NCBI RefSeq assembly: GCF_003697815.1
Contig: NZ_RDQG01000008.1
Span: 1 to 53,490, forward strand
From: Halalkalicoccus subterraneus
GTDB lineage: Archaea > Halobacteriota > Halobacteria > Halobacteriales > Halalkalicoccaceae
Direction: 5' to 3'
Length of the DNA stretch: 53,490 nt
A program made the translations under genes and the position numbers. Of the stretch, positions 9,858 through 53,490 are shown piece by piece. Positions within the stretch are counted from its first letter, which is position 1. Each line of letters opens with the position of its first letter. The notes beneath the pieces are model-generated. The model did no database searches. It was not told the origin of the DNA and saw only the letters and a list, made by a program, of their open reading frames with translations.

Positions 9858-11188
9858 TAGCGCGCGAGTTCGGCCCCGAATTCCGGGAGGAGATCGGAGA
9901 AATCGTCGCCGGCGAGCAGGTCGTACTCCGATTCGAGCGCGCGCTCGACGGCCGGACCAAGCGAGACCGAGAACAGCTCGTTTTCCAAACACTCGATTGC
10001 AGCGGTGTATTCGCGCTCGCGCTCGACGACGTAGCGTCCCCCGTCGACGAAGGGGCCGTAGGCGTCGCTTTCGTCGTACTTCTCGTAGAATGCGGCGGCG
10101 TGATCGCGGACGTGGACTGGCGGGCCGGCGTGGCGCTCGACGGCCGGGAGCGAACCGACCGCCGGTTCGATCAGCACGAGCGCCCGGTCGTCGGCGAACG
10201 CCGCGGAGCGAAGAACCGAGAACTCGTGGCGTTCGAGCGCGTCGACGAGGTTCGAGCGGCTCTTCTCGAGTTGGGGGTAGAGCTGGTCGTCGACGATATC
10301 GGGAGCCGCGAATCGGAGCGCTATCGGTGTCGTCCCGCGGCGGGCGAGATGGGGTTCCAGATCCGTCCGAGAAAGCGGGTCGGGCTCGCTCGGCTCGAAG
10401 CGCTCGGCGTCGGGGTCCGCAAGCAGCGTGCGGGCGTGGTGCTGGAACCGTGCGAGGTTGGTACTGGAAAGGACCGCCGCGACGTTTCGCTCGGGGTCGG
10501 TGGGGTCGATGACGACCAGCGGGTCGTCGAAGCTTCGGGTACCGTGATCCACCGGGTCGAGTTCGACCGTAGGATGCCAGTCGACGACCGCCTCGATCAG
10601 GGGGCGAACCCCGCCGAACTCGATGACGAGAAGCTCACAGAGGTATCCCGAAAACCCCTCCGTACGGAGGTCGCTGCCGTAGATCCCGCGGGCGGACAGA
10701 AACGACTTGAGGACGCGCACGTCCGCGGCGAGATCGGGCGTGATCTCGCGTTCGACGTACTCGGTGTGAAAGGGCGTGCGGTCGACCGCCGAGCGAGCCT
10801 CCGCGGCTGATTCGACCCGGAAACAAGGGACCAGATCCACATCGTATCCCTCGAATGTGCCTGTCGTGTAGGGATGTTCGGCGTATTCGGCCCGGCCCTC
10901 CGGGAGGACCGCATGGCCCACATCCAACCCGAGCGATTCGAGTTCCTCGCGGGGGAGGTCGGGCGGAAAGCGCACGAACAGGTCGATGTCCTGATCGCCA
11001 GGGAGCCACGTCCCTCTGGCAGTAGATCCGACCCGGACGAGATCCGTCTCGACGGGGCAGTCGGCGGTCGCGGCCTCGGTGCGCGCGACGAGGCGGTCGG
11101 CCGCCCGCGAGAGGCGTTCGCGTTCCTCGCGTGAAGGAGTCGTCCGCTCGCGAACCGCAGCGAGGACGGAAGCGAGAATGTCGGTCAT
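9839..11188 (-). CDS. cca: CCA-adding enzyme (archaeal class I tRNA nucleotidyltransferase)
   Basis: 449 residues, archaeal length. The nucleotidyltransferase core is GSTARGTWLPGDQDIDLFV (residues 54-72, catalytic Asp67/Asp69), with the third carboxylate in YDVDLVPCF (~118), followed by the central and tail domains. It adds or repairs the 3' CCA of tRNAs, needed here because the tRNA genes in this window do not encode CCA. It sits 95 bp from, and divergent to, the tRNA-Asn gene. Confidence 0.96.
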   Translation of the reverse strand: MTDILASVLAAVRERTTPSREERERLSRAADRLVARTEAATADCPVETDLVRVGSTARGTWLPGDQDIDLFVRFPPDLPREELESLGLDVGHAVLPEGRAEYAEHPYTTGTFEGYDVDLVPCFRVESAAEARSAVDRTPFHTEYVEREITPDLAADVRVLKSFLSARGIYGSDLRTEGFSGYLCELLVIEFGGVRPLIEAVVDWHPTVELDPVDHGTRSFDDPLVVIDPTDPERNVAAVLSSTNLARFQHHARTLLADPDAERFEPSEPDPLSRTDLEPHLARRGTTPIALRFAAPDIVDDQLYPQLEKSRSNLVDALERHEFSVLRSAAFADDRALVLIEPAVGSLPAVERHAGPPVHVRDHAAAFYEKYDESDAYGPFVDGGRYVVEREREYTAAIECLENELFSVSLGPAVERALESEYDLLAGDDFSDLLPEFGAELARYYDPSP

Positions 11189-11249
11189 TGCCGCCGGTTC
11201 CGCCGGAACGGGTGAAAGGGTGTCGATGGGACGGTGGCAAAGCGAAAGC

Positions 11250-11259
11250 CCTATTTGAC
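11250..11259 (+). promoter_or_regulatory. Promoter box of tRNA-Asn
   Basis: CCTATTTGAC with TATTTG 26-31 bp before the tRNA 5' end; the expected box A position. Confidence 0.55.
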
Positions 11260-11282
11260 GAGTGCGGTTAGGTGGGAGTGAA

Positions 11283-11355
11283 GCCGCCGTAGCTCAGTTG
11301 GTAGAGCACCTGGTTGTTACCCAGGTTGTCCCAGGTTCGAGTCCTGGCGGCGGCG
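11283..11355 (+). tRNA. tRNA-Asn (anticodon GTT)
   Basis: 73 nt, intronless, full cloverleaf: acceptor GCCGCCG/CGGCGGC with discriminator G, D stem GCTC/GAGC, anticodon stem CCTGG/CCAGG with loop TTGTTAC, T stem CCAGG/CCTGG with TTCGAGT loop. CCA is not encoded. An AAAAC-GAA-GTTTT hairpin follows directly. Confidence 0.98.
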
Positions 11356-11357
11356 TC

Positions 11358-11400
11358 AAAACGAAGTTTTAACGAGCACACGAGAACCGCTTCGCGGTTC
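11358..11400 (+). terminator. Two triloop hairpins after tRNA-Asn
   Basis: AAAAC-GAA-GTTTT (11358-11370) and GAACCGC-TTC-GCGGTTC (11384-11400), both perfect stems with a 3-nt GAA/TTC loop. The first, with its T-run, could end transcription of the tRNA. Confidence 0.45.
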
Positions 11401-11529
11401 CCGCAATGGCGTGAATTTCCACAGGAAATGCCTCCAAGGTAGAGCCGTCGTTTTCGCCAATGGCGTACCTCCGTCGTGGCCGGAACTATCCGGCAGAATT
11501 TTGGTCGGCGCTTCAGTACCCCGAGACGA

Positions 11530-11604
11530 GGGCCCGTATCTCAGTCAGGTTAGAGAGGTCGGCTCATAACCGACTCGTCCTTGGTTCAAATCCGAGCGGG
11601 CCCA
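11530..11604 (+). tRNA. tRNA with CAT anticodon (elongator Met, or Ile2 read with agmatidine)
   Basis: 75 nt, intronless: acceptor GGGCCCG/CGGGCCC with discriminator A, D stem TCTC/GAGA, anticodon stem GTCGG/CCGAC with loop CTCATAA, T stem CTTGG/CCGAG with one G-T pair and TTCAAAT loop. The G1-C72 pair excludes the archaeal initiator type. From sequence alone the CAT anticodon may be Met or, if modified to agmatidine at C34, Ile(AUA). Degenerate copies of its 3' end lie downstream. Confidence 0.93.
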
Positions 11605-11695
11605 TGAGCGCCGACGAGCGGACGCGAGGAGAAGCGAATGAATCGCGATCGGAGTTGAATGACGGAACGAACGAGCGTGGCGAGCGACGTTCAGG

Positions 11696-11718
11696 TGGTT
11701 CACATCCGAGCGAGCCCA
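11696..11718 (+). repeat. Degenerate copy of the CAT-tRNA 3' end (att-like), copy B
   Basis: A 23-bp stretch starting TGGTTCACATCCGAGC matches 21 of 23 positions of the T-arm/acceptor end of the tRNA at 11582-11604; the two differences break the T-loop and acceptor stem, so it is not a tRNA. Such copies are typical scars of integration at tRNA 3' ends. Confidence 0.75.
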
Positions 11719-11810
11719 TCTTTTCGCTGCGAGCAATCACACGAGCAGCGAGAACTGAATGAGCGAGGGTTTGAAACGGAGAGTGGAGCGACCAAACGGG
11801 AGCGAAACGA

Positions 11811-11834
11811 CCGAGGTTCAAAACCGTCCGGGCC
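11811..11834 (+). repeat. Weaker tRNA 3'-end-like copy C
   Basis: CCGAGGTTCAAAACCG followed by TCCGGGCC resembles the same T-arm/acceptor block with several changes. It may be an older att scar or a remnant of another tRNA. Confidence 0.4.
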
Positions 11835-11875
11835 GACTCCGACGACTCACGGAGGGACTGCCATCACCTCGAAAA

Positions 11876-11886
11876 CATTATATAAC
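11876..11886 (+). promoter_or_regulatory. Strong TATA box upstream of the pilin
   Basis: ATTATATAAC is the clearest TATA element in the window. A start ~27 bp on would lie near 11909, giving a leader of about 105 nt before the pilin ATG, long for a haloarchaeon. Confidence 0.65.
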
Positions 11887-11939
11887 TTAACGGATGCATT
11901 AGGAGACAAGCACGAAAGCACTGCGAAGGAGACGGCCGT

Positions 11940-12000
11940 AGGTGGCCAACCCCACCTGTGGAGGAGTATCACGCCGATACTGCTCGTCGCCACACCACCT
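11940..12000 (+). promoter_or_regulatory. Structured 5' leader of the pilin mRNA with competing pairings
   Basis: AGGTGG (11940-11945) can pair with CCACCT at 11952-11957 or with a second CCACCT at 11995-12000, so the pairings exclude each other. Between them AGTATC-ACGCC-GATACT (11965-11981) forms a perfect 6-bp hairpin. This is what is seen; a switch function is inference. Confidence 0.4.
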
Positions 12001-12013
12001 TTCGCGTAAAAAC

Positions 12014-12424
12014 ATGAGATTGAAAACACTTACACACGAGATGCACAGTCTCCGCGGTGACGACGACCGCGGCGTATCGCCCGTTATCGGTGTTGTCCTA
12101 ATGGTCGCCATCACCGTGATCCTCGCGGCCGTAATCGGGGCGTTCGTCCTCGGACTGGGAGATGGACTCGGAACGAATCCCCAAGCTGGCGTAACTGTCG
12201 AGGGTGATGGGAGCGAGTCCGCCACGGTAACCCTCACGAGTCTGGATAACGCTGATGGAATCGTAATTCGAGATAGTGATGGCGGCGAGGCGGAGGACGG
12301 TGCGCTTTCGACTATTGGTGAAAGTACGACTATCACTGGTCAAAACGAATACTCAGTCGTTGCCACGGATGGGGATGGCAATGAAGCGACTGTTCGTACT
12401 TTCGAACTGACTGATGGAGCATGA
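12014..12424 (+). CDS. Type IV pilin with archaeal pilin N-terminal domain
   Basis: 136 residues. After a short basic leader comes DRGVSPVIGVVLMVAITVIL and the rest of the hydrophobic helix (residues ~18-47), the conserved haloarchaeal PilA-type class III signal, cut by prepilin peptidase around Gly20-Val21. The exposed part is acidic and Thr/Ser-rich, with a probable beta-sandwich. Expected in adhesion pili assembled by a PilB/PilC system that is not in this window. The base composition is clearly more AT-rich than neighbouring genes and the gene lies among tRNA scars, so recent transfer is likely. An ATG at 12041 is an alternative start. Confidence 0.9.
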   Translation: MRLKTLTHEMHSLRGDDDRGVSPVIGVVLMVAITVILAAVIGAFVLGLGDGLGTNPQAGVTVEGDGSESATVTLTSLDNADGIVIRDSDGGEAEDGALSTIGESTTITGQNEYSVVATDGDGNEATVRTFELTDGA

Positions 12425-12536
12425 ACAGTAGAAGCGCGGAAGTAAGCCCTTTATAGTCCATTCTACGTACCGATTGGACCCGTTTCGTTCACGTACATCC
12501 CTGTTTTCGAGCCCCTCACTGACTGTTTGGAGGAGT
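12425..12536. other. Intergenic gap between pilin and the convergent small gene
   Basis: 112 bp between convergent genes, AT-richer than average; no tRNA, repeat or clear hairpin terminator was recognised. Confidence 0.4.
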
Positions 12537-12773
12537 TCACTCGTGGGTGAACAGGAAGAGCCGCCCGTCCTCGCCGGTGACCGTACAGAGGTTCATCACC
12601 TTCCCGAGCGAGAGGCTGGTTTCCGACTGTTTGCAGACCACGAGATAGTCGAAGGACTCCTCGCAGACCGGACACGAGATCGAGGTCGTGTTCTGGTAGC
12701 TGGCTGTCATCTCGTTTTCCTCGCGCGGCGTGAGGTAGCTTTTCATCTCGTCGATGTTCTCGATGTTGGCCAT
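12537..12773 (-). CDS. Small cysteine-containing (zinc-finger-like) protein, 78 aa
   Basis: 78 residues: MANIENIDEMKSYLTPREE then a CPVCEESFDYLVVCKQ segment (residues ~34-49) and NLC at ~62. Three to four cysteines could bind one zinc, but the second CxxC pair is incomplete. No membrane segment. A similar small family is labelled 'flagella cluster protein' in some haloarchaeal genomes (weak recollection); its presence beside a pilin gene makes a link to surface filaments possible but unproven. A T-run promoter lies ~27 bp upstream, supporting this start. Confidence 0.75.
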   Translation of the reverse strand: MANIENIDEMKSYLTPREENEMTASYQNTTSISCPVCEESFDYLVVCKQSETSLSLGKVMNLCTVTGEDGRLFLFTHE

Positions 12774-12794
12774 GCGGGGAGAGGTGGGCGCGAG

Positions 12795-12804
12795 GAAATA
12801 AAAC
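12795..12804 (-). promoter_or_regulatory. Promoter box of the 78-aa gene
   Basis: On the minus strand GTTTTATTTC about 27 bp before the ATG at 12773; leaderless arrangement. Confidence 0.6.
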
Positions 12805-12905
12805 TAGCTCCGAATCGAACGCAAAGCGGACGGCCTCTCGTCGACTCGAACCGGTTCGAGTACTCGCCGAAGTGCGAGTAGTAGGGATCTAACCGACACC
12901 GGTCG

Positions 12906-12917
12906 CCTATATATATC
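12906..12917 (+). promoter_or_regulatory. TATA box upstream of the zinc-ribbon membrane protein
   Basis: CTATATATATCT, a strong TATA element. Transcription would begin near 12940, leaving ~110 nt of leader before the ATG at 13052. Confidence 0.55.
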
Positions 12918-13051
12918 TCCTAGAAAATACTTTGCCCGTCTCGGACGAACGACCAGTACGGGCAAACGACCATGAAAGGACCAAATTCAGGCGTCCAACG
13001 GTGTCGGTTCGATATAGTCCCGTCGCGGTACGGAAGAACGAGGGCGACGAG

Positions 13052-43469: not shown

Positions 43470-44465
43470 TCAGTCGTCCGTCCTACCGCCGTCCGTCGCG
43501 GCCGTGCGAGCCTCCTGGCGGCGCTGGCGCATGTAGCGCGCCCGGAGGACGTTACCGTACATCGAGAGGAAGAGGCCGATGAAGAGGACGAGGACCCCGA
43601 TGTTGATGCCGACGGTACGGAGGAGACTCCCCTCGCCGAAGACGATCGTCTGACTGATGGGGTAGCCGCCGTAGCTCATGCTCGCCAGCAGGATGCTCAC
43701 GACCCCGATGATCGTGAGCACGCCCATGACGTTGGTCACCCAGCCCCAACTGGGTTTCAGCCGGAGGCGCTCGATGCCGGTCACCGACTCGGACTCGGCG
43801 TCGCCGTGATACTCGGGCGTGTCGGATTTCGGGAGAAAGGCCTTCATCTCGACGGGGTAGAACGCCGGATGGAAGCCGTGTTCGAAGGTGTGAAACATCA
43901 CTCCCATCATCATGATCACGCCCAGCGCGCCGTGGAACGCGACGAACGCGATGACGACCGACTGTGAGTTGTAGAAGTCGATCAGCATCGTCTTCTGCCA
44001 GATGAGGAGCCCCGAAACCATCAACAACAGCAGTTCGACGGCGAAGATGGCGATCACACCCTTGCCCACGTAGGAGAGCAGCGGGATCTCGTCGGCCGAA
44101 TAGCCCGCGAACTGTCGGGCGTTGGGGTGGCGTTCGTCGGCCATGCCGGCCGCGAACTTCATGTCCTGGACGAACGCGGCGACGTCGCCGGGGGTCGGCA
44201 ACACTGCGGTGAGGCTGACCGAACCGCCCGCGCGCAGGAGCATGTAGAAGACCCAGAAGGCCGTCAGGAAGATCAGCGCGAAGCCCGCGACCCGGTGGAC
44301 CGCGAGCACGCCCGTGTTGCCGCCCATGAGTTCGACGAGCCACCACAGTTCGTCGTTGAACGCGACGGCGTAACCCGTGAAGAAGAGCAGGAACACCGTC
44401 AGCGCGAGCAGCGAGTGAAACATCGTCGTCACGCGGGAGAACTTCCCGTGGTCGAGGGAGGTCAT
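43470..44465 (-). CDS. Cytochrome b subunit of a formate dehydrogenase-type complex
   Basis: 331 residues, about seven hydrophobic segments. SRVTTMFHSLLALTVFLLFFTGY, LAVHRVAGFALIFLTAFWVFY and FVAFHGALGVIMMMGVMFHTFEH supply the membrane histidines expected for two b hemes (FdnI/HybB-like fold). It should pass electrons from the Fe-S subunit to menaquinone. Two extra C-terminal helices (~residues 255-310) extend beyond the 4-helix core. Its ATG overlaps the preceding gene as ATGA, so it is translated together with the Fe-S and catalytic subunits. Confidence 0.85.
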   Translation of the reverse strand: MTSLDHGKFSRVTTMFHSLLALTVFLLFFTGYAVAFNDELWWLVELMGGNTGVLAVHRVAGFALIFLTAFWVFYMLLRAGGSVSLTAVLPTPGDVAAFVQDMKFAAGMADERHPNARQFAGYSADEIPLLSYVGKGVIAIFAVELLLLMVSGLLIWQKTMLIDFYNSQSVVIAFVAFHGALGVIMMMGVMFHTFEHGFHPAFYPVEMKAFLPKSDTPEYHGDAESESVTGIERLRLKPSWGWVTNVMGVLTIIGVVSILLASMSYGGYPISQTIVFGEGSLLRTVGINIGVLVLFIGLFLSMYGNVLRARYMRQRRQEARTAATDGGRTDD

Positions 44466-44938
44466 TCGGCGTCACCCCCACAGGTGGTGTCGCTCGCGGA
44501 GTCGGATCGCTCGCCCCCGTCCGTCGCGACCGCGTCGCTGTTTCGGCGCGGGGCTCCGTGCGGGCGCATGCGCGCGGCGAGCCGGCGGAAGGCGATCCAG
44601 TGCATGAAGATCATCACGAGGATGAACACGCCCATCAGCACGTCCGCGAAGTGGATCAGCGTGATCAGCCAGTCCAGGGCCGGCTTCGTGTTGCCCTGGA
44701 TCCACCCCGCGCCGACGCCGCCGCCCTCGACGGTCGGGCGCACGCGCTGGAGCGCCTCGAACTGGATCGCCCGGACGCCGATCAGCCAGACCGATCCGAC
44801 CGCGAGCGCCAGCGAGAGGACGGCGCTGATCCAGAAGGCCGCCCGATCCGAGAGCCCGCGGTTCCCGCCGTCGGACTCCGTACGCTCGTCGGCAACGTGA
44901 TCGGAGTCGCCGCCGGTCTCGGGGTCCGTGTCGCTCAT
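44462..44938 (-). CDS. Small membrane subunit between Fe-S and cytochrome b genes
   Basis: 158 residues from the ATG at 44938. Acidic N-terminus (1-30), then two hydrophobic segments: FWISAVLSLALAVGSVWLIG (~residues 36-55) and the longer LDWLITLIHFADVLMGVFIL (~92-111) continuing to VMIFMHWIAFRRL. Two histidines (LIHFAD, FMHWIAF) inside the helices could be heme ligands. ATGA overlaps on both sides show it is part of the operon. No family recognised. Confidence 0.8.
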   Translation of the reverse strand: MSDTDPETGGDSDHVADERTESDGGNRGLSDRAAFWISAVLSLALAVGSVWLIGVRAIQFEALQRVRPTVEGGGVGAGWIQGNTKPALDWLITLIHFADVLMGVFILVMIFMHWIAFRRLAARMRPHGAPRRNSDAVATDGGERSDSASDTTCGGDAE

Positions 44939-45609
44939 CTGTCGAACATCCCCGTGTCGTCGCCGAAGATGATCTCCATGGCGGTGTCGTTGAAGAACGC
45001 ACCGCTGTCGCGTTTCTCCAACTCGTCCGCGATCTCGCCGGAGGAACCCACGAGGATGGCGTCGGTCGCACACTCCTCGGCGCAGGCGGGTCCCTTCCCG
45101 ACGTCCTGGCGCTCCTCACAGCCCGTACACTTGTCCATCGTCCCCCCCGATCCGACGACCGCGGTCAGCCCCTCGTTCGATTCGGGGAACTGGGGCGCGC
45201 CGAACGGACAGGCCGAGAGACAGTACTGACAGCCGATACAGAGGTCGTCGACGACCTCGACGAAGCCGTTGTCCTTCTTCTGGAGGGCGTTGGTCGGACA
45301 GACCGACACGCAGGGGGCGTTCTCGCAGTGATAACACTGCATCGGGAGGCTCGTCTCGCCGGGGCTCATCCCCTCCTCGATCGCGCTGACCTGCTGACCG
45401 TTGAACCCGCTCTCGCCCTCGACGCCCTCGAGCATCGTCGTGATGTCGATACGCTGGTCGTCGACCGGGACGTCCCAGGTACGCTTGCAGGCGACCACGC
45501 AGCCGCCACAGTCGATACACGCCTCGACGTCGGGGAAGATCCGCATCCCCTCGCCGGTACTCATGACGCCCTGACCGAGTCGCTCTTGGGTCGATTCGTT
45601 CGCTGACAT
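44935..45609 (-). CDS. Formate dehydrogenase Fe-S subunit (four-cluster ferredoxin type)
   Basis: 224 residues. CIDCGGCVVACKRTW (~31-45), CYHCENAPCVSVCPTNAL (~92-109), CIGCQYCLSACPFGAP (~123-138) and CTGCEERQ...CAEECATDAI (~160-185) provide the four [4Fe-4S] sites of an FdnH/DmsB-like electron-transfer subunit. No Tat signal of its own; probably co-exported with the catalytic subunit. A 1-bp gap separates it from the catalytic gene and its stop overlaps the next ATG as ATGA. Confidence 0.92.
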   Translation of the reverse strand: MSANESTQERLGQGVMSTGEGMRIFPDVEACIDCGGCVVACKRTWDVPVDDQRIDITTMLEGVEGESGFNGQQVSAIEEGMSPGETSLPMQCYHCENAPCVSVCPTNALQKKDNGFVEVVDDLCIGCQYCLSACPFGAPQFPESNEGLTAVVGSGGTMDKCTGCEERQDVGKGPACAEECATDAILVGSSGEIADELEKRDSGAFFNDTAMEIIFGDDTGMFDR

Positions 45610-45610
45610 T

Positions 45611-48600
45611 CTAGTCGTCCCCCGTCTGTGGTTGCATGCTCTGGTTTCTGACGTCCCACTCGTAGGAGTCGCCGAGTCCGGCCTCCTCCTGTGGGTAGTC
45701 GATGACCTCCATGTTCAGTTCCTCGATGCGCTGTTCGGTCGCCTTCTCGACCCGGACGAGTCCCGCCTTGGTCTCCTGCATCTGCGTCTCGGCGTCGAAC
45801 CCACTGGAGGTGACGAAGTTCGCGCTGTCGCCGATCGCGAGCGGCTTCGATCCCTCGGGGTACTTGTCGCTCATGTTCTGCCCGTGGGCGATCCCGCCCC
45901 AGTGATACGGCAGGAAGACCTCGTTACCGCCCTGTGGGCGGTAGGTGACCTTCGCTTTCACGAGAATCGAGCCCTTGTCGGCGTCGGCGGAGGTGATGAT
46001 GACGTGGTCCTCGCCGCCGACCAGATCGAGGTCCTCGGCCATGTCGGGGTGGATCTCCGCGTACATGTGGGGCTGGAGGTCGGCCGTATAGGGGTTGTTC
46101 CGCGTCTCGGCGCCCCCGCCCTGATGTTCGACCTGTCGCCCCGATGTGAGGATCGTGTCGATCCCCTGGTCGTAGGCGCGCTGGGTCGCCTCCTGCTGGG
46201 TCGCGGCGTTGTTCTGATCGAGCCGGAAGAAGTTGGTCTGCTGGCCGTTTGCGGGCCACTGCTCGGCCAGATCGGGCCGCGGGCTCTGGATCGGTTCGCG
46301 GTGTTTCGGGACCGTATCGATGAAGTTCCAGACGACCGCCCGTGCCCGGCCGCGTCCGGTCGGCGGGTCAGGTTGGGCGTTGTCGTACTGCTCGTAGAAC
46401 GCCAAGTTGTGGTCGTGGTCCCGCTGTTCGTTCAGCGCGGCCGCACAGTCGTAGATCGAGACGTCCTCGCGCAGCGCGTATTCCATCGGAATCGTCAACG
46501 AGGAGGCATCGGCCGGGTCCTCCGGCAGCGTCGTCGTGAAGCCCGGATACTGCGGGACACCGATGACCTCGCCGTCGAACCAATCGGGCTGATAGGACTC
46601 GCGAAGCATGTCCAGGCCCGCCTCGCCCTCCTGCTCGTAGGTCTCGGCGAGCGGGTACTCCTTGTCGACGCCCGTCGCCTCCCACTCCTCGGGCGTCGGG
46701 GCGTCGATACCCCAGTTCGCGCGGAAGTCGTGACCACCCTCGGCCGGATGGACGTCGTCGCGCCAGATGATCGGCGTCCCGGGATGCTCGTCGCCCCAAC
46801 AGGGCCACGGCAGCCCCCAGAACTCGCCGCTGACCGGCAGTCCCTCGCTGTCGGCCCGCAGCGTCTCGGTGCTGAAGGCGTCGTCGTGTTCCTTCTGGCG
46901 CTGGAGGCGTTCGGGACTCTGCTGGTAGCCGACCGTGCGCACCCCGAGGTTGATCTCCCGCAGCACGTCCTCGTAGGTGCTCTTACCGTTGTAGAGTTCG
47001 GGACCGCTCCCCCAGTCGAAGTGCTCGCCGAAGCCGAAGCGTCCGGCCAGTTCCTGCATGATCTGCAGGTCGGGCTTGGAGGCGTGGGCCGGCGAGGCGA
47101 CGGGTTCGCTCCACTGGACGGAGCGATGGGAGTTGGTCACCGAGCGGTGGTGCTCGTACTGGCTCGATACCGGCAGCAACAGGACGTTGTCGGCGTCGGC
47201 GTCCTCAAGCGTGCCGGCGACGGCGGGGAAGAGGTCGACGACCACCAGCAGGTCGAGCGCCTCCATCGCCTTCTTCATCTTGTCCATCTCGGTGATGGAG
47301 TTGGCCGAGTGGCCCCAGAAGAAGGCCATCTTCAACGGGTCGGGCTGGTAGAGGGTCGACTCGTGGAGCCGGTCCTCCTGCTGGAGGGCGGCCTCGTACC
47401 AGCGGGCGACCGACAGCCCGTCCTGGAGCATCATCGTCCGCGGGTCGATCTGGCGTTGAGAGCCGCCGTCCTCGGAGCTGCCCTGATCGGCGCCGCCGTC
47501 CCCACCCGACCCCCCTTGGGCAGCGGGATCGCCCGTCTGCGAGTCGGCCTCGGTTGGGGACTGGGAGTTCGGACCCGCGCCGGTGTCCTCGGCCTGCGAG
47601 ACGTCCTCGACGGCGTCGCTCTGTTCGGTCTCCGCCGATTGGAGTTCGCTTGCGGCGGGCGGGCCGCCACCGCCCGCGGAGAGCTGCTGCCAGATGTCGT
47701 CAGGCATCGTCGCGAAACGGTCGTGAAGGTCCCAGAAATCCGTCGAGCCGCTCGTCCACGGGCTCCGGTTCCAGACGTTCGTCCAGTGGACCCACGAGCC
47801 GGCCGCCGACACGGAGTAGTAGCCCGGTAGGATGGTGCTGTCGACGCCCAGATCGGTCGCACCCTGGACGTTGGCGTGTCCACGCATCACCTGCAGGCCG
47901 CCGCCGCTGCGGGCGGCGCTGCCCGAGGCAAGCGAGTGCAGCGCGTACGAGCGGATGTTCTGGGTACCGTTGTTGTGCTGGGTGCCGCCCATCGCCCACT
48001 CGATCTGGATGTTGGGCTTGTTCTCGATGATCAGGTCGCCGAGCTCTTGGAGCTGCTCGACGTCGATCCAGGTGATGTCGGCGACCGTCTCGAGGTCGTA
48101 CTGTTCGAGTTCGGCCTCGGCGTCGGGCCAGCCGTTGACCCGTTCGGAGAGCATCTCGTCGTCGAGTTCGCCCTGCTGCTCGAGGTAGTTCATCAGCCCC
48201 ATCAGCAGCGCCACGTCGGTACCCGGACGCATCCGGTAGTAGTTGTCGGCGTGCGAGGAGGTCTTCGTGTATCGGGGGTCGATCGAGACGACGGTCCCGT
48301 CCCTCGCTTGCCCCTCGAGGATGTGCTGCATCGCGATCGGGTGGGACTCGGCGGGGTTCTGCCCGCAGATGATGAGCAGATCGAAATTCCGGTAGTCGTT
48401 GATCGTGTTGGTCATCGCCCCGTAGCCCCACGTGTTCGAAAGGCCCGTGACGGTCGGGGAGTGACAGATCCGCGCCTGGTGATCGCAGTTGTTCGTCCCC
48501 ATGAAGGCCGAGAGCTTCCGGAAGGCGTAGGCCTCCTCGTTTGCGTGGTGGGCGCTTCCCATCATCATGACGCTCTCGGGGGTGTACTCCTCGATGATCT

Positions 48601-49009
48601 CGGCGTACTTCTCTTCGATGATGTCGTAGGCCTCGCTCCACGAGATCGTCTCCCACCCGCCGTCGACCCGGTGCATCGGCCGTTTCAACCGACGATCCGA
48701 GTGCTCGGTCTCGAGGATCCCCGCGCCCTTCGAACAGAGCGAACCGTTGTTGATCGGGTTCTCGTGCCACGGCTCCATACCGACGAAGGAATCACCCTCG
48801 GTGACGCCGCGAAAGCCACAGCCGACCGCACAGTAGTTACAGATCGTCTTGGTCATCTCGCCGTCCGGGGTGGTACCTTCGTCCTCGTCGTCGTTCTGGG
48901 CGAGGGTCTGCCCCGCCGCGCCGCCGCCGAGCGCGACCGCGCCCGCGAGCGCGCTCGCCTTCAGGAACGACCGCCGGTCGAGATCCAGAGAGACGGGCTC
49001 CGCACTCAT
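45611..49009 (-). CDS. Formate dehydrogenase catalytic subunit (Mo/W-bis-MGD, Tat-exported)
   Basis: 1132 residues. Tat signal DRRSFLKASALAGAVALGGG (residues 11-30). [4Fe-4S] ligands C57, C60, C64 (CNYCAVGC) and C92. The metal site is DHQARICHSPTVTG: Cys182 replaces selenocysteine, followed by His183, the FDH signature. C-terminal molybdopterin-binding domain with HGQNMSDKYPEG and VTSSGFD. Oxidises formate to CO2 outside the membrane and passes electrons to the Fe-S and cytochrome b subunits. Odd: an acidic Ser/Gly/Gln-rich insertion (~443-516) in the middle, and overall length ~300 above a typical FDH core. It follows a 24-codon ORF with an ATGA overlap. Confidence 0.93.
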   Translation of the reverse strand: MSAEPVSLDLDRRSFLKASALAGAVALGGGAAGQTLAQNDDEDEGTTPDGEMTKTICNYCAVGCGFRGVTEGDSFVGMEPWHENPINNGSLCSKGAGILETEHSDRRLKRPMHRVDGGWETISWSEAYDIIEEKYAEIIEEYTPESVMMMGSAHHANEEAYAFRKLSAFMGTNNCDHQARICHSPTVTGLSNTWGYGAMTNTINDYRNFDLLIICGQNPAESHPIAMQHILEGQARDGTVVSIDPRYTKTSSHADNYYRMRPGTDVALLMGLMNYLEQQGELDDEMLSERVNGWPDAEAELEQYDLETVADITWIDVEQLQELGDLIIENKPNIQIEWAMGGTQHNNGTQNIRSYALHSLASGSAARSGGGLQVMRGHANVQGATDLGVDSTILPGYYSVSAAGSWVHWTNVWNRSPWTSGSTDFWDLHDRFATMPDDIWQQLSAGGGGPPAASELQSAETEQSDAVEDVSQAEDTGAGPNSQSPTEADSQTGDPAAQGGSGGDGGADQGSSEDGGSQRQIDPRTMMLQDGLSVARWYEAALQQEDRLHESTLYQPDPLKMAFFWGHSANSITEMDKMKKAMEALDLLVVVDLFPAVAGTLEDADADNVLLLPVSSQYEHHRSVTNSHRSVQWSEPVASPAHASKPDLQIMQELAGRFGFGEHFDWGSGPELYNGKSTYEDVLREINLGVRTVGYQQSPERLQRQKEHDDAFSTETLRADSEGLPVSGEFWGLPWPCWGDEHPGTPIIWRDDVHPAEGGHDFRANWGIDAPTPEEWEATGVDKEYPLAETYEQEGEAGLDMLRESYQPDWFDGEVIGVPQYPGFTTTLPEDPADASSLTIPMEYALREDVSIYDCAAALNEQRDHDHNLAFYEQYDNAQPDPPTGRGRARAVVWNFIDTVPKHREPIQSPRPDLAEQWPANGQQTNFFRLDQNNAATQQEATQRAYDQGIDTILTSGRQVEHQGGGAETRNNPYTADLQPHMYAEIHPDMAEDLDLVGGEDHVIITSADADKGSILVKAKVTYRPQGGNEVFLPYHWGGIAHGQNMSDKYPEGSKPLAIGDSANFVTSSGFDAETQMQETKAGLVRVEKATEQRIEELNMEVIDYPQEEAGLGDSYEWDVRNQSMQPQTGDD

Positions 49010-49080
49010 CCGCTCGCCTCACCCCGTGGCGAACGGCTCACGGCCCGCTCGGTCTGATAGATCGTGATAGTTCTACGCAT
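49006..49080 (-). CDS. 24-residue leaderless ORF upstream of the formate dehydrogenase gene
   Basis: ATG at 49080, TGA at 49008-49006, sharing the ATGA overlap with the FDH catalytic gene. Begins MRRTITIYQTERAVSR and is basic (4-5 Arg) with no Cys. The FDH gene is in another frame, so this is not an N-terminal extension. A TTAATTG promoter box is centred 28 bp before the ATG, so this ORF, not the FDH start, is the first codon of the mRNA. It probably drives translational coupling into the FDH gene or is a small protein in its own right. Confidence 0.6.
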   Translation of the reverse strand: MRRTITIYQTERAVSRSPRGEASG

Positions 49081-49102
49081 GCTACAGTCCTACTGAACAG
49101 AC

Positions 49103-49112
49103 GACAATTAAC
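49103..49112 (-). promoter_or_regulatory. Promoter box of the formate dehydrogenase operon
   Basis: Minus-strand GTTAATTGTC, centre 28 bp before the ATG at 49080. It lies within an inverted repeat ACAATTAACGTTGT, possibly an operator. Confidence 0.65.
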
Positions 49113-49198
49113 GTTGTGCTTTCTGTGAAAAAACAGGCCAGGGCGTCGTGTTTCGTGCGGGCGCAAGACCTTTCCGCACCCCTCACTACCCACCGCCA

Positions 49199-51334
49199 AT
49201 GAAGACCGGTGCGTTCGTCTGCTCGTGTGCTGGTACCTGCGAGGTCGATCTCGAGGACGCCCGCGAGGGGATCGAGGGGGTCGACGTCGCCGCCAGCTCC
49301 GAGCTGCTCTGTGGGGAGAAAAAGGGGCTGCCGGCGATGGAGCAGGTCATCGAGGAATACGAACTCGACCAGCTTCTCGTGACCTGTCCCGAACCGGGAG
49401 TCCAGGATAAACTCGGCGGCGTCGCGGAGGACCACGGCCTCCATCCCGAGGCGGTCTCTTTCGTCGACCAGCGCGAGGCTGCGGGCTGGGTCCATCCCGA
49501 GGAAGAGGCGACCGACAAGACCTCGAGAATGGTCAACGCCCGTCGGGCGGGCCTCGAGGAGGAGGCGATCGCGCGCTCGATCTCGCGCGAAGCCGGCGAG
49601 CGCGTCGCGGTCGTCGGCGACGCGGAGGCCGCCGCCACTCTCTCGGAAGACGCCGAGGTGACGCTGATCGCCGACGGAAAGGAGTTCGCCGGCGTCGACG
49701 GGTTGGAGGACGTGACCATCGAGCGCGGGCGGGTCACGGGCGTCGCCGGCGAGTTCGGCGACTTCTCGGTCGGGCTCGAAGCCCGCGTGAGCGACGAGTG
49801 CATCTCGTGTATGAAGTGCGTCCACGAGGGTCCCGATGGACTGGTTACACGCCGGCCGGTCGACATCGCGCCCGATGCACCCGAGGGCGAATGGACCGAC
49901 GTCTGCCCGACCGACGCCATTGAGATGGACGGCGTCAAAAGGGATTTGGAGGTCGACCAGGTGGTCCACCCGGGCGGTGATTCGAAGGCACGCGGCGGGC
50001 GTATCGGCTACTACACCGACGCGGGGCCGGCGACGATGGCCGCCGCAGAGAGCCTTCTCGGAGGGATCGAAAAGCCCGACTTCCTCGACTTCGAGATGGA
50101 CGTCTGCGCCTCCGGCGAGTCGAACCAGGAGGGCTGTCGGGCCTGCTACGACGCCTGCCCGCACGATGCGGTCGCGAAACCCCGCCCCGACGAGGTCGAC
50201 ATCGACCCGATCGCCTGTCAGAACTGCGGGGCCTGCACCAGCGCCTGCCCGACCGGCGCGGTGAGCCTGCGCGAACCGTCGAACGAGCGCATCGCCCGCG
50301 AGGTCGAGGCGCTGCTCGGAACCGGCGCCGACCAGGGCGGCTGGTTGTCGAGAGCGTCCGGCATCGAGAAACCCATAATCGCCTTCACCTGCGGCGAGCG
50401 CGCCGACGACGCCCTGAGCGAGTTCGGTAAACGCGCCGCTTCCGGGGAGGAAATCGAGTACCCGCCGATCCTGCCCGTCTCGGTGAACTGTGCCGACACC
50501 GTCGGCGAATCCCACGTCGCCCACGCGCTGGCCTGCGGCGCGGCCGGCGTCGCGATACTGGGCTGTGGCTGTGACTGTCGTCACTCGGGGGCCGACCCGA
50601 AAGAGGAACTCGTCGAGCGGCTCAACCAAGCCACGCGGGACATGGGGCTCGGCGAACGGGTGGGCTTCTTCGCGCCCGAAGCCGGCGAGCCCGGAGGATT
50701 CGTCGAGTCGCTGTCGGCGTTCGAGGAATCGTTAGAGCCCTCGCCGGTCCCGGAGGGCGACCACCGCGCCGACGGAACGTTGCTCCACAGCGACCACGAA
50801 AATCAGGAGTTCTATAACCACGGCTGGACCCTCGAGAGCGTCCGGGCGATCCTCGAACACGTCGAACCCGATCGGGAGGTGATCCGCGGCCTTTCGGACT
50901 TCGGCCGGATGGAGGTCTCGGATGCCTGTACGCTGACCCCCACCTGCTCGAACCTCTGTCCGACCGACGCGATCAGGAGGACCGAGTGGGGTCTGGAGTT
51001 CAACCACGAGAAATGCGTCAACTGCGGGCTCTGTGAGGAGGGGTGTCCCGAGAGCGCGATCACGATGAGGGATGGGTTAGACCTCTCGCTGCTGCCGGAG
51101 AACCGCGCCGAGGAAACCGAGGAAGGCGAGGATCCCGCCTGGACGCAGACGTTCGAGGGCGAGATGCTCGAGTGTGCCCGGTGTGGCGACCCGTTCACGA
51201 GCGAGCGCTCGGCCGCGAAGATCGAGGAGGAGGTCGGCGATCTGGTTGCCGGACTGGCCCCGAGCGCCGAGGAGAGCGTCTTCAACTACTGCCCGGACTG
51301 CCGGGCGTACCTGCTCTACGACCGGGGGAACTGA
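49199..51334 (+). CDS. HdrA-like/MvhD-like multi-cluster Fe-S protein lacking the flavin domain
   Basis: 711 residues, cytoplasmic. In order: an HdrA-like N-terminus with CSCAGTC (8-14), LLCGEK, CPEPG and WVHPEEEATDKTSRMVNA (~96-113); a ~60-residue remnant VAVVGDAEAAATL where HdrA has its FAD domain; a [4Fe-4S] motif CISCMKC...CPTDA (~200-240); a 2[4Fe-4S] ferredoxin CRACYDACPHDA and CQNCGACTSACPTGA (~315-355); an MvhD-like domain IIAFTCGER...YPPILPVSVNC...ILGCGCDCRHSG (~394-465); a second ferredoxin CTLTPTCSNLCP, CVNCGLCEEGCP (~577-622); and a final zinc ribbon CARCG...CPDC (~658-700). Divergent from FDH and joined to a TorD-like chaperone. No known function; see findings. Confidence 0.85.
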   Translation: MKTGAFVCSCAGTCEVDLEDAREGIEGVDVAASSELLCGEKKGLPAMEQVIEEYELDQLLVTCPEPGVQDKLGGVAEDHGLHPEAVSFVDQREAAGWVHPEEEATDKTSRMVNARRAGLEEEAIARSISREAGERVAVVGDAEAAATLSEDAEVTLIADGKEFAGVDGLEDVTIERGRVTGVAGEFGDFSVGLEARVSDECISCMKCVHEGPDGLVTRRPVDIAPDAPEGEWTDVCPTDAIEMDGVKRDLEVDQVVHPGGDSKARGGRIGYYTDAGPATMAAAESLLGGIEKPDFLDFEMDVCASGESNQEGCRACYDACPHDAVAKPRPDEVDIDPIACQNCGACTSACPTGAVSLREPSNERIAREVEALLGTGADQGGWLSRASGIEKPIIAFTCGERADDALSEFGKRAASGEEIEYPPILPVSVNCADTVGESHVAHALACGAAGVAILGCGCDCRHSGADPKEELVERLNQATRDMGLGERVGFFAPEAGEPGGFVESLSAFEESLEPSPVPEGDHRADGTLLHSDHENQEFYNHGWTLESVRAILEHVEPDREVIRGLSDFGRMEVSDACTLTPTCSNLCPTDAIRRTEWGLEFNHEKCVNCGLCEEGCPESAITMRDGLDLSLLPENRAEETEEGEDPAWTQTFEGEMLECARCGDPFTSERSAAKIEEEVGDLVAGLAPSAEESVFNYCPDCRAYLLYDRGN

Positions 51335-51335
51335 G

Positions 51336-51959
51336 ATGAGCGACGAGGAGATCTACGCCGCCCGACTCGAACTGGTCGACTTCCTGATCGAGGCGCTGTG
51401 GGACGCGCCGAGCGAGGAGTTCGTCGGAACCCTGCTGTCGGGCGAGATCCGAACCCCCGAGAGCGTCGACGAGGACCTCGATACGGGCTTCGAGGAGCTG
51501 CGGACCTTCGTCGAGGAAAACGAGGGGCGCGACGTAGCGGCGGTCCAGCGGGAGTTGAACCGCGAGTACACCCGCGTGTTCGTTGGCCCCCGACCCCCGG
51601 TGATGGCCCACGAGAGCTACTACCGCGAGGACATGGACTTCTTGGGGACTGGCAAGGCCGAGGTCGAGGCGAGTTACGGCGCCGCGGGCTGGACCCCATC
51701 CGAGGACTACCCCGAGGAGGGCGACTTCGTCGCCGTCGAACTCGCCTTTCTCAGACATTTAATCGAGCGCCAGCGCAGGGGCGCCGAGGAGGCGTTCGGC
51801 TACGAGCGGGTCTTCGTCGAGGAACACATGACCCACTGGATCGACGACTGCGCGGACGACATCATCGAGTACGCCGACGGCGCGTTCTACGAGGCGGTCG
51901 GTCACCTCCTCGCGGGCGTCGTCGAGTTCGAGGCCGAACTCGCCGGCCAGATGGCCTGA
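51336..51959 (+). CDS. TorD/DmsD/NarJ-type molybdoenzyme chaperone
   Basis: 207 residues, all-helical. EYTRVFVGPRPPVMAHESYY (~residues 70-89), with the E-Y-x-R-[LV]F-x-G and P...ES[VY]Y pattern of the family, and FLRHLIERQRRG plus FVEEHMTHWIDDCADDI. Such chaperones hold the apo-catalytic subunit and its Tat signal until the Mo/W cofactor is inserted. The obvious client is the Tat-exported formate dehydrogenase encoded 2.3 kb away. Its ATG is 1 bp after the stop of the HdrA/MvhD-like gene, so the two are co-translated. Confidence 0.88.
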   Translation: MSDEEIYAARLELVDFLIEALWDAPSEEFVGTLLSGEIRTPESVDEDLDTGFEELRTFVEENEGRDVAAVQRELNREYTRVFVGPRPPVMAHESYYREDMDFLGTGKAEVEASYGAAGWTPSEDYPEEGDFVAVELAFLRHLIERQRRGAEEAFGYERVFVEEHMTHWIDDCADDIIEYADGAFYEAVGHLLAGVVEFEAELAGQMA

Positions 51960-51965
51960 AGGCAC

Positions 51966-51976
51966 AACGTTTTTGC
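51966..51976 (+). promoter_or_regulatory. Promoter box of the 86-aa membrane gene
   Basis: AACGTTTTTGC ~28 bp before the ATG at 52000. Confidence 0.5.
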
Positions 51977-51999
51977 GCGAGACACGCCCTGAACGAAAT

Positions 52000-52260
52000 A
52001 TGGCGCTCAAGACCGCGCTCGAGCACAACCCCGTGCTCACGGTCGCGTTCCTGCTCTTCGGCGGGTGGCTCGCGATCACGACGCTGAACGTCGCCTCGAG
52101 CATGGGACCCGTGATGGGTGCCGACTGGATCGGTCACTCGGGGCCCGGTGGAGTCGTGGGACTGGCCGTGATGATCGCCCTCGGGGTCCTGCTGGTCTAC
52201 GTCTACGCCGAACTCGCCGAATCGGACCCCGCACCCGATAGCTTCCCGCCCGAACGCTGA
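52000..52260 (+). CDS. Small two-helix membrane protein, 86 aa
   Basis: 86 residues with two hydrophobic segments: LTVAFLLFGGWLAITTLNVA (~13-32) and VGLAVMIALGVLLVYVYAEL (~52-71), plus GPVMGADWIGHSGPGG between them. Its stop overlaps the next ATG as TGATG. No family recognised; may belong to the formate dehydrogenase gene set, but its own promoter makes that uncertain. Confidence 0.75.
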   Translation: MALKTALEHNPVLTVAFLLFGGWLAITTLNVASSMGPVMGADWIGHSGPGGVVGLAVMIALGVLLVYVYAELAESDPAPDSFPPER

Positions 52261-52580
52261 TGGCCGGAACCAGCGAGCCGATCGAGATCGAACCGAGCGA
52301 GCGCTTTCTCGCGGCCGCCGGCGAGTGGGGAGAGCGCCGAATGCTCGACGACGAGGAGGCGATCCGCGCGAAGGCAGAACAGGCGCTCTTGGAGATCGAA
52401 CACCTCGTGTCGGGTGCCACCGAAGTCGAATTCGACGTCGAGGACGGAGTCGTGCGGTACGAACCGAGCGAGGAACTGGCGACGTTCCTCGACGAACAGG
52501 CGGCTCTCGCCGGAATCGAACGCGGACTGGTCCTCGAACTGTACGTGAACCTCTTCTCGCGGGTCTTCCTCGAGGAGTAG
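52260..52580 (+). CDS. Hypothetical helical protein, 106 aa
   Basis: 106 residues, acidic, mostly helical, no Cys or membrane segment: EIEPSERFLAAAGEWGERRM, then DDEEAIRAKAEQALLEIEHL, a short beta hairpin EVEFDVEDGVVRYEP, and a C-terminal helix LVLELYVNLFSRVFLEE. Overlaps the upstream gene as TGATG, so co-translated. Unknown function. Confidence 0.75.
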   Translation: MAGTSEPIEIEPSERFLAAAGEWGERRMLDDEEAIRAKAEQALLEIEHLVSGATEVEFDVEDGVVRYEPSEELATFLDEQAALAGIERGLVLELYVNLFSRVFLEE

Positions 52581-52592
52581 GGCCAGGGACAG

Positions 52593-52601
52593 GGTATAAG
52601 C
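52593..52601 (+). promoter_or_regulatory. TATA box of the 57-aa gene
   Basis: GGTATAAGC, ~27 bp before the ATG at 52625; leaderless. Confidence 0.6.
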
Positions 52602-52624
52602 CGATCGAGCGGCACTGTCGAGAT

Positions 52625-52798
52625 ATGACACACGAGATCGAGAAGACCGACCTGCGGACCCGCCCGACGATCGAGGAGATCGACGGCCACGAGACGTGGT
52701 CGCACACCGGCCCACACGTGATCAACACCGGCGTCGTCGACGGCGACGTCTCCTTCGACCTCGATCCCGAGGACCGCGAGGACGGAAACGAGGACTAA
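52625..52798 (+). CDS. Hypothetical small acidic protein, 57 aa
   Basis: 57 residues: MTHEIEKTDLRTRPTIEEID then GHETWSHTGPHVINTGVVDG and an acidic tail. Four histidines, no Cys. A clean TATA box 27 bp upstream supports the start. Its last bases overlap the stop of the opposite gene by 4 bp. Function unknown. Confidence 0.65.
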   Translation: MTHEIEKTDLRTRPTIEEIDGHETWSHTGPHVINTGVVDGDVSFDLDPEDREDGNED

Positions 52799-53490
52799 TC
52801 GAGCTCCCACCCGGCCTTTTCGGCGGCCGTTTCGATGGGAACGAACTCCCAACCCGCCTCCTCTGCGATCCACTCCTCTCCTTTGCAGCCCAGCAGGGCC
52901 ATTCGCTCGGCGAAGAACATCGACATCTCGGTGATCTCCGCGAGTCGTTCACTTGGCCCAGTACCGGTGCCGTTGAAGAAGTCCGCGTCGATCCCCTTGG
53001 AGCGCTGGAAGGTGGTAATGACGTGGGCGTCGACCTCGCCGACGATGCCGATCCAGTCGGCAAAGGTCGCGCCCGCGAGGACGGACGCCGGGTCCGCGAG
53101 GCGTTTCGCCGCCTCGTAGGTGACCGCCATCGTCATCTCGTCGGCCCCGCCACCGTGGGGGCCCGAGGCGTCCTCGGGGACCCCGCCCTCGCGGTCGCGC
53201 TCGGCGGCCGCCTCGCGCGCGGAGGTACCACCCGCCCCGCCCTGCTCCTCGGGGAGGCCGACCGGTTTGTCCCGGTTCTCGTGGGGAACGTGGGGCGTCG
53301 ACGCGTCGGCGGGGTCCGGCTCCGAAACGGCCTCGCGCGCCGATCCGGTTGGAGGGCCGGAATCGCTTCCCGATTCGGAGACGGACCCCGACGCGGCGGA
53401 ATCGCTCTCGGTCGCCACACCTTCCTCGTCGGGGTCGCCCTCACCGCGCCAGAACCAGTCGCCGCGGTTGGGCTGGGGTTCCTCGTCGGG
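52795..53490 (-). CDS. Conserved haloarchaeal protein (DUF7124-like), 5'-truncated by the window edge
   Basis: Open on the minus strand from the stop at 52795 to base 53490, 231 codons. The first visible part reads PNRGDWFWRGEGDPDEEG, so the gene continues past the window; a GTG at 53418 would only be an internal alternative. A long Ser/Gly/Asp/Glu-rich region is followed by TMAVTYEAAKRLADPASVLAG and a domain with DWIGIVGEVDAHVITTFQRS and ITEMSMFFAERMALLGCKGEEW (parts). The family name is a recollection; function unknown. Confidence 0.75.
   Translation of the reverse strand, partial: PDEEPQPNRGDWFWRGEGDPDEEGVATESDSAASGSVSESGSDSGPPTGSAREAVSEPDPADASTPHVPHENRDKPVGLPEEQGGAGGTSAREAAAERDREGGVPEDASGPHGGGADEMTMAVTYEAAKRLADPASVLAGATFADWIGIVGEVDAHVITTFQRSKGIDADFFNGTGTGPSERLAEITEMSMFFAERMALLGCKGEEWIAEEAGWEFVPIETAAEKAGWELD

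Follow-up and report, generated by a model that had tools for sequence, protein, structure and literature searches.

FdhD is the known sulfurtransferase of formate dehydrogenases (FDH). These enzymes require a sulfido ligand, and a 2023 review describes as an open question how the FdhD-less haloarchaea load and sulfurate the FDH cofactor (PMC10609526). Accessory proteins have been described for other Tat-exported molybdoenzymes: NapF, a cytosolic four-cluster protein, is needed in Rhodobacter for the Fe-S assembly of NapA, and FdhM is a TorD homologue that serves the exported FDH of Campylobacter, its operon also containing fdhD (PMC10609526). Proteobacterial clusters with TorD and FDH3 genes include a "4Fe-4S binding protein" gene, fer4 (Bay et al. 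2015, PMC4464133); no description of a function for it was found in the literature searched, subscription journals lying mostly outside that search. Type Ia HdrA is the name given to fusions of HdrA and MvhD (PMC12054007).

The window analysed here, the whole 53,490-nucleotide stretch from Halalkalicoccus subterraneus, carries two divergent gene units. Reading the ORFs of the window confirmed their places and showed all of the described genes to be open. The reverse strand encodes the FDH alpha subunit (45611-49009; 1132 aa), the beta subunit (44935-45609), a small membrane protein with about two transmembrane helices (44462-44938), and a cytochrome b membrane subunit (Ni_hydr_CYTB, PF01292; 43470-44465). 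Across a 189-bp intergenic region (49010-49198), presumed to be a shared promoter region, the forward strand encodes a 711-aa cytosolic iron-sulfur protein derived from HdrA and MvhD (49199-51334), for whose family we have coined the name HdrFer4, and a TorD/NarJ-family chaperone (51336-51959) which matches PF02613 (Nitrate_red_del) at 89.7 bits, above the curated cut-off of 22.2. The HdrFer4 stop lies one base ahead of the chaperone start codon. The preliminary description of both units is thus accurate in its genes, on the agreement of ORFs, domains and motifs, and also in coupling the chaperone gene to the HdrA/MvhD-like gene and in assigning the two products to different compartments, a Tat signal being present on the FDH and no export signal on the 711-aa protein. 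The divergent arrangement is not a matter of chance, since it recurs in dozens of genomes.

The Tat-exported alpha subunit has a Cys-type active site. Pfam searches detected PF00384, PF04879 and PF01568 together with a weak Tat-signal match; the Tat motif reads DRRSFLK, and both the FDH active-site Cys182-His (ICHS) and the conserved arginine motif RGHANVQG are present, so that the sequence marks of a respiratory formate dehydrogenase of the FDH3/FDH-N type are all found. Its best NCBIfam match is TIGR01591, at 417 bits against a curated equivalog cut-off of 666, and that of the beta subunit, a ferredoxin-type electron-transfer protein, is NF038355 (FDH3 beta), at 146 bits against a cut-off of 240; a RefSeq protein annotated as FDH3 alpha likewise falls under the equivalog cut-off, at 460 bits. 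The small membrane protein has no Pfam match and is conserved across those type I FDH operons that were inspected (the types are described below). Once exported, the finished enzyme would hand electrons from formate to quinone by way of beta and cytochrome b. About 70 acidic, low-complexity residues inserted near positions 450-520 of alpha split the alignments with its relatives.

In HdrFer4, Pfam identifies FlpD/MvhD (PF02662) and ferredoxin domains. Sequence and profile searches place HdrA matches in the N-domain (about residues 1-140) and around residues 298-374, followed by an MvhD-matching region at 393-519, in which the FlpD/MvhD domain spans 393-513; beyond residue 560 the matches are to ferredoxins or to HycF. 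There are two ferredoxin diclusters (Cys 303-350 and 577-616) and, at 659-701, a C-terminal CxxC-CxxC ribbon with cysteines 659, 662, 698 and 701. The best relative of solved structure is HdrA, by sequence as well as by fold: for the AlphaFold model (mean pLDDT 69, pTM 0.69, with low-confidence stretches at 212-244, 524-539, 638-652 and 688-711), the top PDB matches are HdrA chains (E from 1.6e-14 to 1e-10), followed by MvhD-type chains. The HdrA N-domain, HdrA C-terminal ferredoxin dicluster and MvhD domain follow the same order as in type Ia HdrA. Unlike that protein, HdrFer4 has a shortened, decayed FAD domain in which VVGDAEAAAT replaces the GxGxxG motif, and it adds the HycF-like dicluster and the CxxC ribbon at its C-terminus; no HdrBC lies nearby, neither HdrB nor HdrC being found among the genes of the window locus, and the genomic partner is instead an exported enzyme.

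An alignment of 43 relatives separates what is kept in this family from what has been lost. The FAD motif is gone in nearly all of them, with none intact among the haloarchaeal sequences and GGGAVG in a single archaeal one. The cysteines of both diclusters occur in all 43, save Cys303 in one sequence, and the C-terminal CxxC pairs in all but one, a 468-aa protein. Haloarchaeal types I-III and many other archaea retain the MvhD-type cysteines 398, 431, 456 and 460, which the bacterial and type IV proteins lack. One ligand position of the second dicluster is Thr580 in types I-III and Cys in bacteria and type IV, which suggests that this cluster may be three-iron in the former. The best explanation for the whole is an ancestral HdrA-MvhD fusion whose FAD site was lost while its chain of Fe-S clusters was retained; the label "HdrA/MvhD-like" used earlier holds as a statement of ancestry and is misleading as one of function.

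As judged from sequence, HdrFer4 is a full-length relative of the uncharacterised proteobacterial fer4 protein, the relatedness extending over residues 1-711 at 24-27% identity. The two have in common a nearby TorD gene, an FDH3-type enzyme, the invariant dicluster cysteines and the C-terminal CxxC pairs. The bacterial form differs in lacking the MvhD cysteines and in its companions, DUF3305/DUF3306, FdhX and, in many cases, FdhD; no such gene was seen at the window locus. HycF (7z0s_F, formate hydrogenlyase subunit 6) aligns from residue 38 to 162 with HdrFer4 profile positions 555-678, the dicluster and C-terminal region, but it belongs to a membrane hydrogenase complex as one of its subunits and shares just this one domain. 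By analogy, the closest functional precedent is NapF, which is likewise cytosolic, has four [4Fe-4S] sites and is dedicated to a Tat-exported molybdoenzyme (PMC10609526); it is much smaller and has no HdrA or MvhD domains, and the homology so far is limited to ferredoxin folds. FdhM resembles the window chaperone as a TorD-family protein dedicated to a Tat-exported FDH, the difference being that the haloarchaea have no fdhD.

To follow the two genes, 341 haloarchaeal genomes were searched for HdrFer4 and FDH alpha, a genome being counted as FDH-positive when its FDH alpha relative had E < 1e-120 (after an E-value gap, the next matches lie near 1e-72). A single-sequence search found HdrFer4 in 89 of the 341, and divergent copies were recognized in G052, G182 and G282. 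In the cross table, filled by hand from the genome lists, 89 genomes have both genes, one has FDH alone (G129), three have HdrFer4 alone and 248 have neither; HdrFer4 is thus present in 89/90 FDH-positive versus 3/251 FDH-negative genomes (Fisher p about 2e-77, for genomes that are related and so not independent). Because of that relatedness the lists were also read by genus: 24 genera mix FDH-positive and FDH-negative species, and on this manual reading HdrFer4 tracks FDH in every one. For most FDH-negative genomes, absence means absence in a single-sequence search that scored few candidates; a more sensitive profile, applied to 21 of them, found none. The preliminary description had tied the FDH to the HdrA/MvhD-like gene and named frequent genomes with either one alone as grounds for dropping the link; FDH alone occurs in one genome and the HdrA/MvhD-like gene alone in three, and the link stands.

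In the three genomes with HdrFer4 alone (G160, G212 and G285), the gene is found next to that of a different Tat-exported molybdoenzyme or next to TorD. FDH and HdrFer4 lie about 20 kb apart in G256 and about 0.6 Mb apart in G317, and G263 has a single HdrFer4 for two FDH copies; since both are nonetheless present, the link is not only physical. G129, a genome in one contig, has an FDH locus with an NrfD-like anchor and TorD (L177, G129:C1:1182000-1201900), yet HdrFer4 was found nowhere in it, so HdrFer4 is not strictly required.

Four arrangements were recognized in the haloarchaea. Type I is the divergent layout of the window. In type II, HdrFer4 is near a different FDH, usually no more than a few kb away, and TorD ends the FDH operon. 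Type III has the order MopA-MopB-NrfD-TorD-HdrFer4; here MopA scores nearest to PhsA and related families and shows a Tat motif but no FDH active-site motif, and the beta subunit scores nearest to ArrB. Such Psr/Arr-like operons with TorD and HdrFer4 were seen at four loci (L034, L042, L044 and L071), and in Natronorubrum bangense arsenic-resistance genes come after the operon; the enzyme is possibly one of arsenic or sulfur respiration. HdrFer4 is missing from seven genomes that have 45-48% identical relatives of the type III enzyme. Type IV has the order FDH-TorD-HdrFer4, its HdrFer4 showing about 30% identity. TorD adjoins HdrFer4 in types I, III and IV and at most loci of other Halobacteriota, where a Tat-exported FDH is usually present as well. 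In a tree of 43 HdrFer4 sequences, type II groups with types I and III (100/99), whereas in a tree of 27 FDH alpha sequences it groups with type IV (100/99), a disagreement that makes HdrFer4 unlike a fixed enzyme subunit.

Outside the haloarchaea the partner varies further. Among the other Halobacteriota, at L216 (5535-11417), a single locus at which no TorD was seen, HdrFer4 is flanked by TatA and by a Tat-exported [NiFe] hydrogenase that has its maturation protease alongside; at L222 (8366-13460), also a single locus, the neighbours of the short 468-aa HdrFer4 and TorD are an aldehyde ferredoxin oxidoreductase (AOR) and a Tat-exported Fe-S protein. The L217 operon, also archaeal, strings FDH together with maturation genes, in the order FDH alpha, beta, small protein, cytochrome b, MobA, HdrFer4, TorD, small protein, cysteine desulfurase, FdhD. 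The bacterial loci, taken from a scan with a bacterial-only alignment, are essentially all from Betaproteobacteria: all 49 of the long ones have TorD and DUF3305/DUF3306 near HdrFer4, 44 have FDH and 28 have FdhD, while five (L101, L103, L108, L111 and L114) have HdrFer4, TorD and DUF3305/3306 with no FDH within 10 kb. A twin-arginine motif was present on every partner enzyme whose N-terminus was inspected. What stays constant is the set of HdrFer4, a TorD-type chaperone (L216 excepted) and a Tat-exported cofactor enzyme, the last varying in class.

This constancy beside a changing enzyme fits maturation before export better than it fits an electron-transfer subunit of any one enzyme and, as relatives of the pair accompany exported metal enzymes in archaea and bacteria alike, makes assembly machinery the most likely role. 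HdrFer4 is probably a cytosolic maturation partner of TorD, working in the manner of NapF; like all functional statements made here about HdrFer4, this one is drawn from gene context. TorD would hold apo-FDH alpha ahead of Tat export, and HdrFer4, remaining in the cytosol with this partner, would contact the apo-enzyme and give it the Fe-S clusters and/or electrons required for loading or activation of the metal cofactor, the item delivered being perhaps a cluster, electrons or sulfur. Counting against maturation are G129, the seven genomes with type III relatives and no HdrFer4 and the five betaproteobacterial loci without FDH, and HdrFer4 is far larger than NapF, with haloarchaeal MvhD-type cysteines that look like an electron wire. 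Those cysteines, kept in types I-III and many archaea, and the clear HdrA and MvhD ancestry would also suit a cytosolic electron-transfer partner through which FDH (or the quinone side) and cytosolic carriers exchange low-potential electrons. HdrA-MvhD carries out such an exchange in the HdrABC-FdhAB complexes of methanogens, and its fusions are an established type. Bifurcation of the Hdr kind is ruled out by the loss of the FAD motif, and even simple electron transfer seems unlikely: the exported FDH has a beta and a cytochrome b of its own, the MvhD cysteines are missing in bacteria and type IV, HdrB and HdrC are not nearby and some partner enzymes are not FDHs. Among the three links suggested in the preliminary description, maturation is therefore now favoured and the cytoplasmic low-potential route disfavoured. 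"Hydrogenase iron-sulfur subunit" annotations beside haloarchaeal FDH genes probably denote parts of neither a hydrogenase nor a bifurcating Hdr.

A narrower proposal concerns sulfur. A search for FdhD, positive in 8/14 reference genomes used as a control, found it in 0/341 haloarchaea, that of the window included, which agrees with the gap stated in the review and makes the HdrFer4/TorD pair a concrete candidate for filling it (PMC10609526). A gene pair that tracks FDH almost perfectly, with a defined family and an invariant set of cysteines, makes the question testable. HdrFer4, with TorD, might replace FdhD in haloarchaea by bringing sulfur to bis-MGD through the CxxC-CxxC ribbon or an Fe-S cluster, in keeping with the need for a sulfido ligand, the conserved cysteines of the ribbon and the cysteine desulfurase in the L217 operon. 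Bacterial clusters and L217, however, hold HdrFer4 and FdhD together, so that HdrFer4 is no simple FdhD substitute everywhere, and G129 has FDH with neither; direct replacement has accordingly been lowered to a decidedly unlikely reading. It is highly improbable that HdrFer4 delivers nothing and is a redox or oxygen sensor gating TorD release and export as quality control: the many, probably labile clusters, the ribbon domain and the tie to TorD rather than to one enzyme, with Tat partners of several classes, would suit a sensor, but diclusters nearly invariant across distant phyla suggest electron or cluster traffic over sensing alone. Returning to maturation, its broadest form, unlikely as it stands, would make HdrFer4 and TorD a general pre-export activating system, tamed from a bifurcating HdrA-MvhD, that serves Tat-exported FDH, Psr/Arr-like, [NiFe] hydrogenase and AOR clusters and, in haloarchaea without FdhD, carries out FdhD's cofactor activation step.

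Downstream of the chaperone on the forward strand lie genes for a small membrane protein of 86 aa (52000-52260), an uncharacterised protein of 106 aa (52260-52580) and an acidic protein of 57 aa (52625-52798), the first and last of which adjoin most type I FDH loci. The 106-aa gene was found in 7/7 type I FDH genomes tested, twice in G118, which holds two FDH loci, and in 0/29 other genomes tested, including type II, type IV and FDH-negative ones. The three look like a haloarchaeal accessory set specific to type I FDH. A DUF7124 protein follows at 52795-53418, and an extra copy is found beside most type I and II FDH loci; as an FDH-specific partner it is ruled out by the presence of the domain in 341/341 haloarchaea. 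Elsewhere in the window, at 11001-13000, the G+C content falls to 0.55-0.61 in a stretch adjoining tRNA-Asn and tRNA-Met genes, possibly an integrated element.
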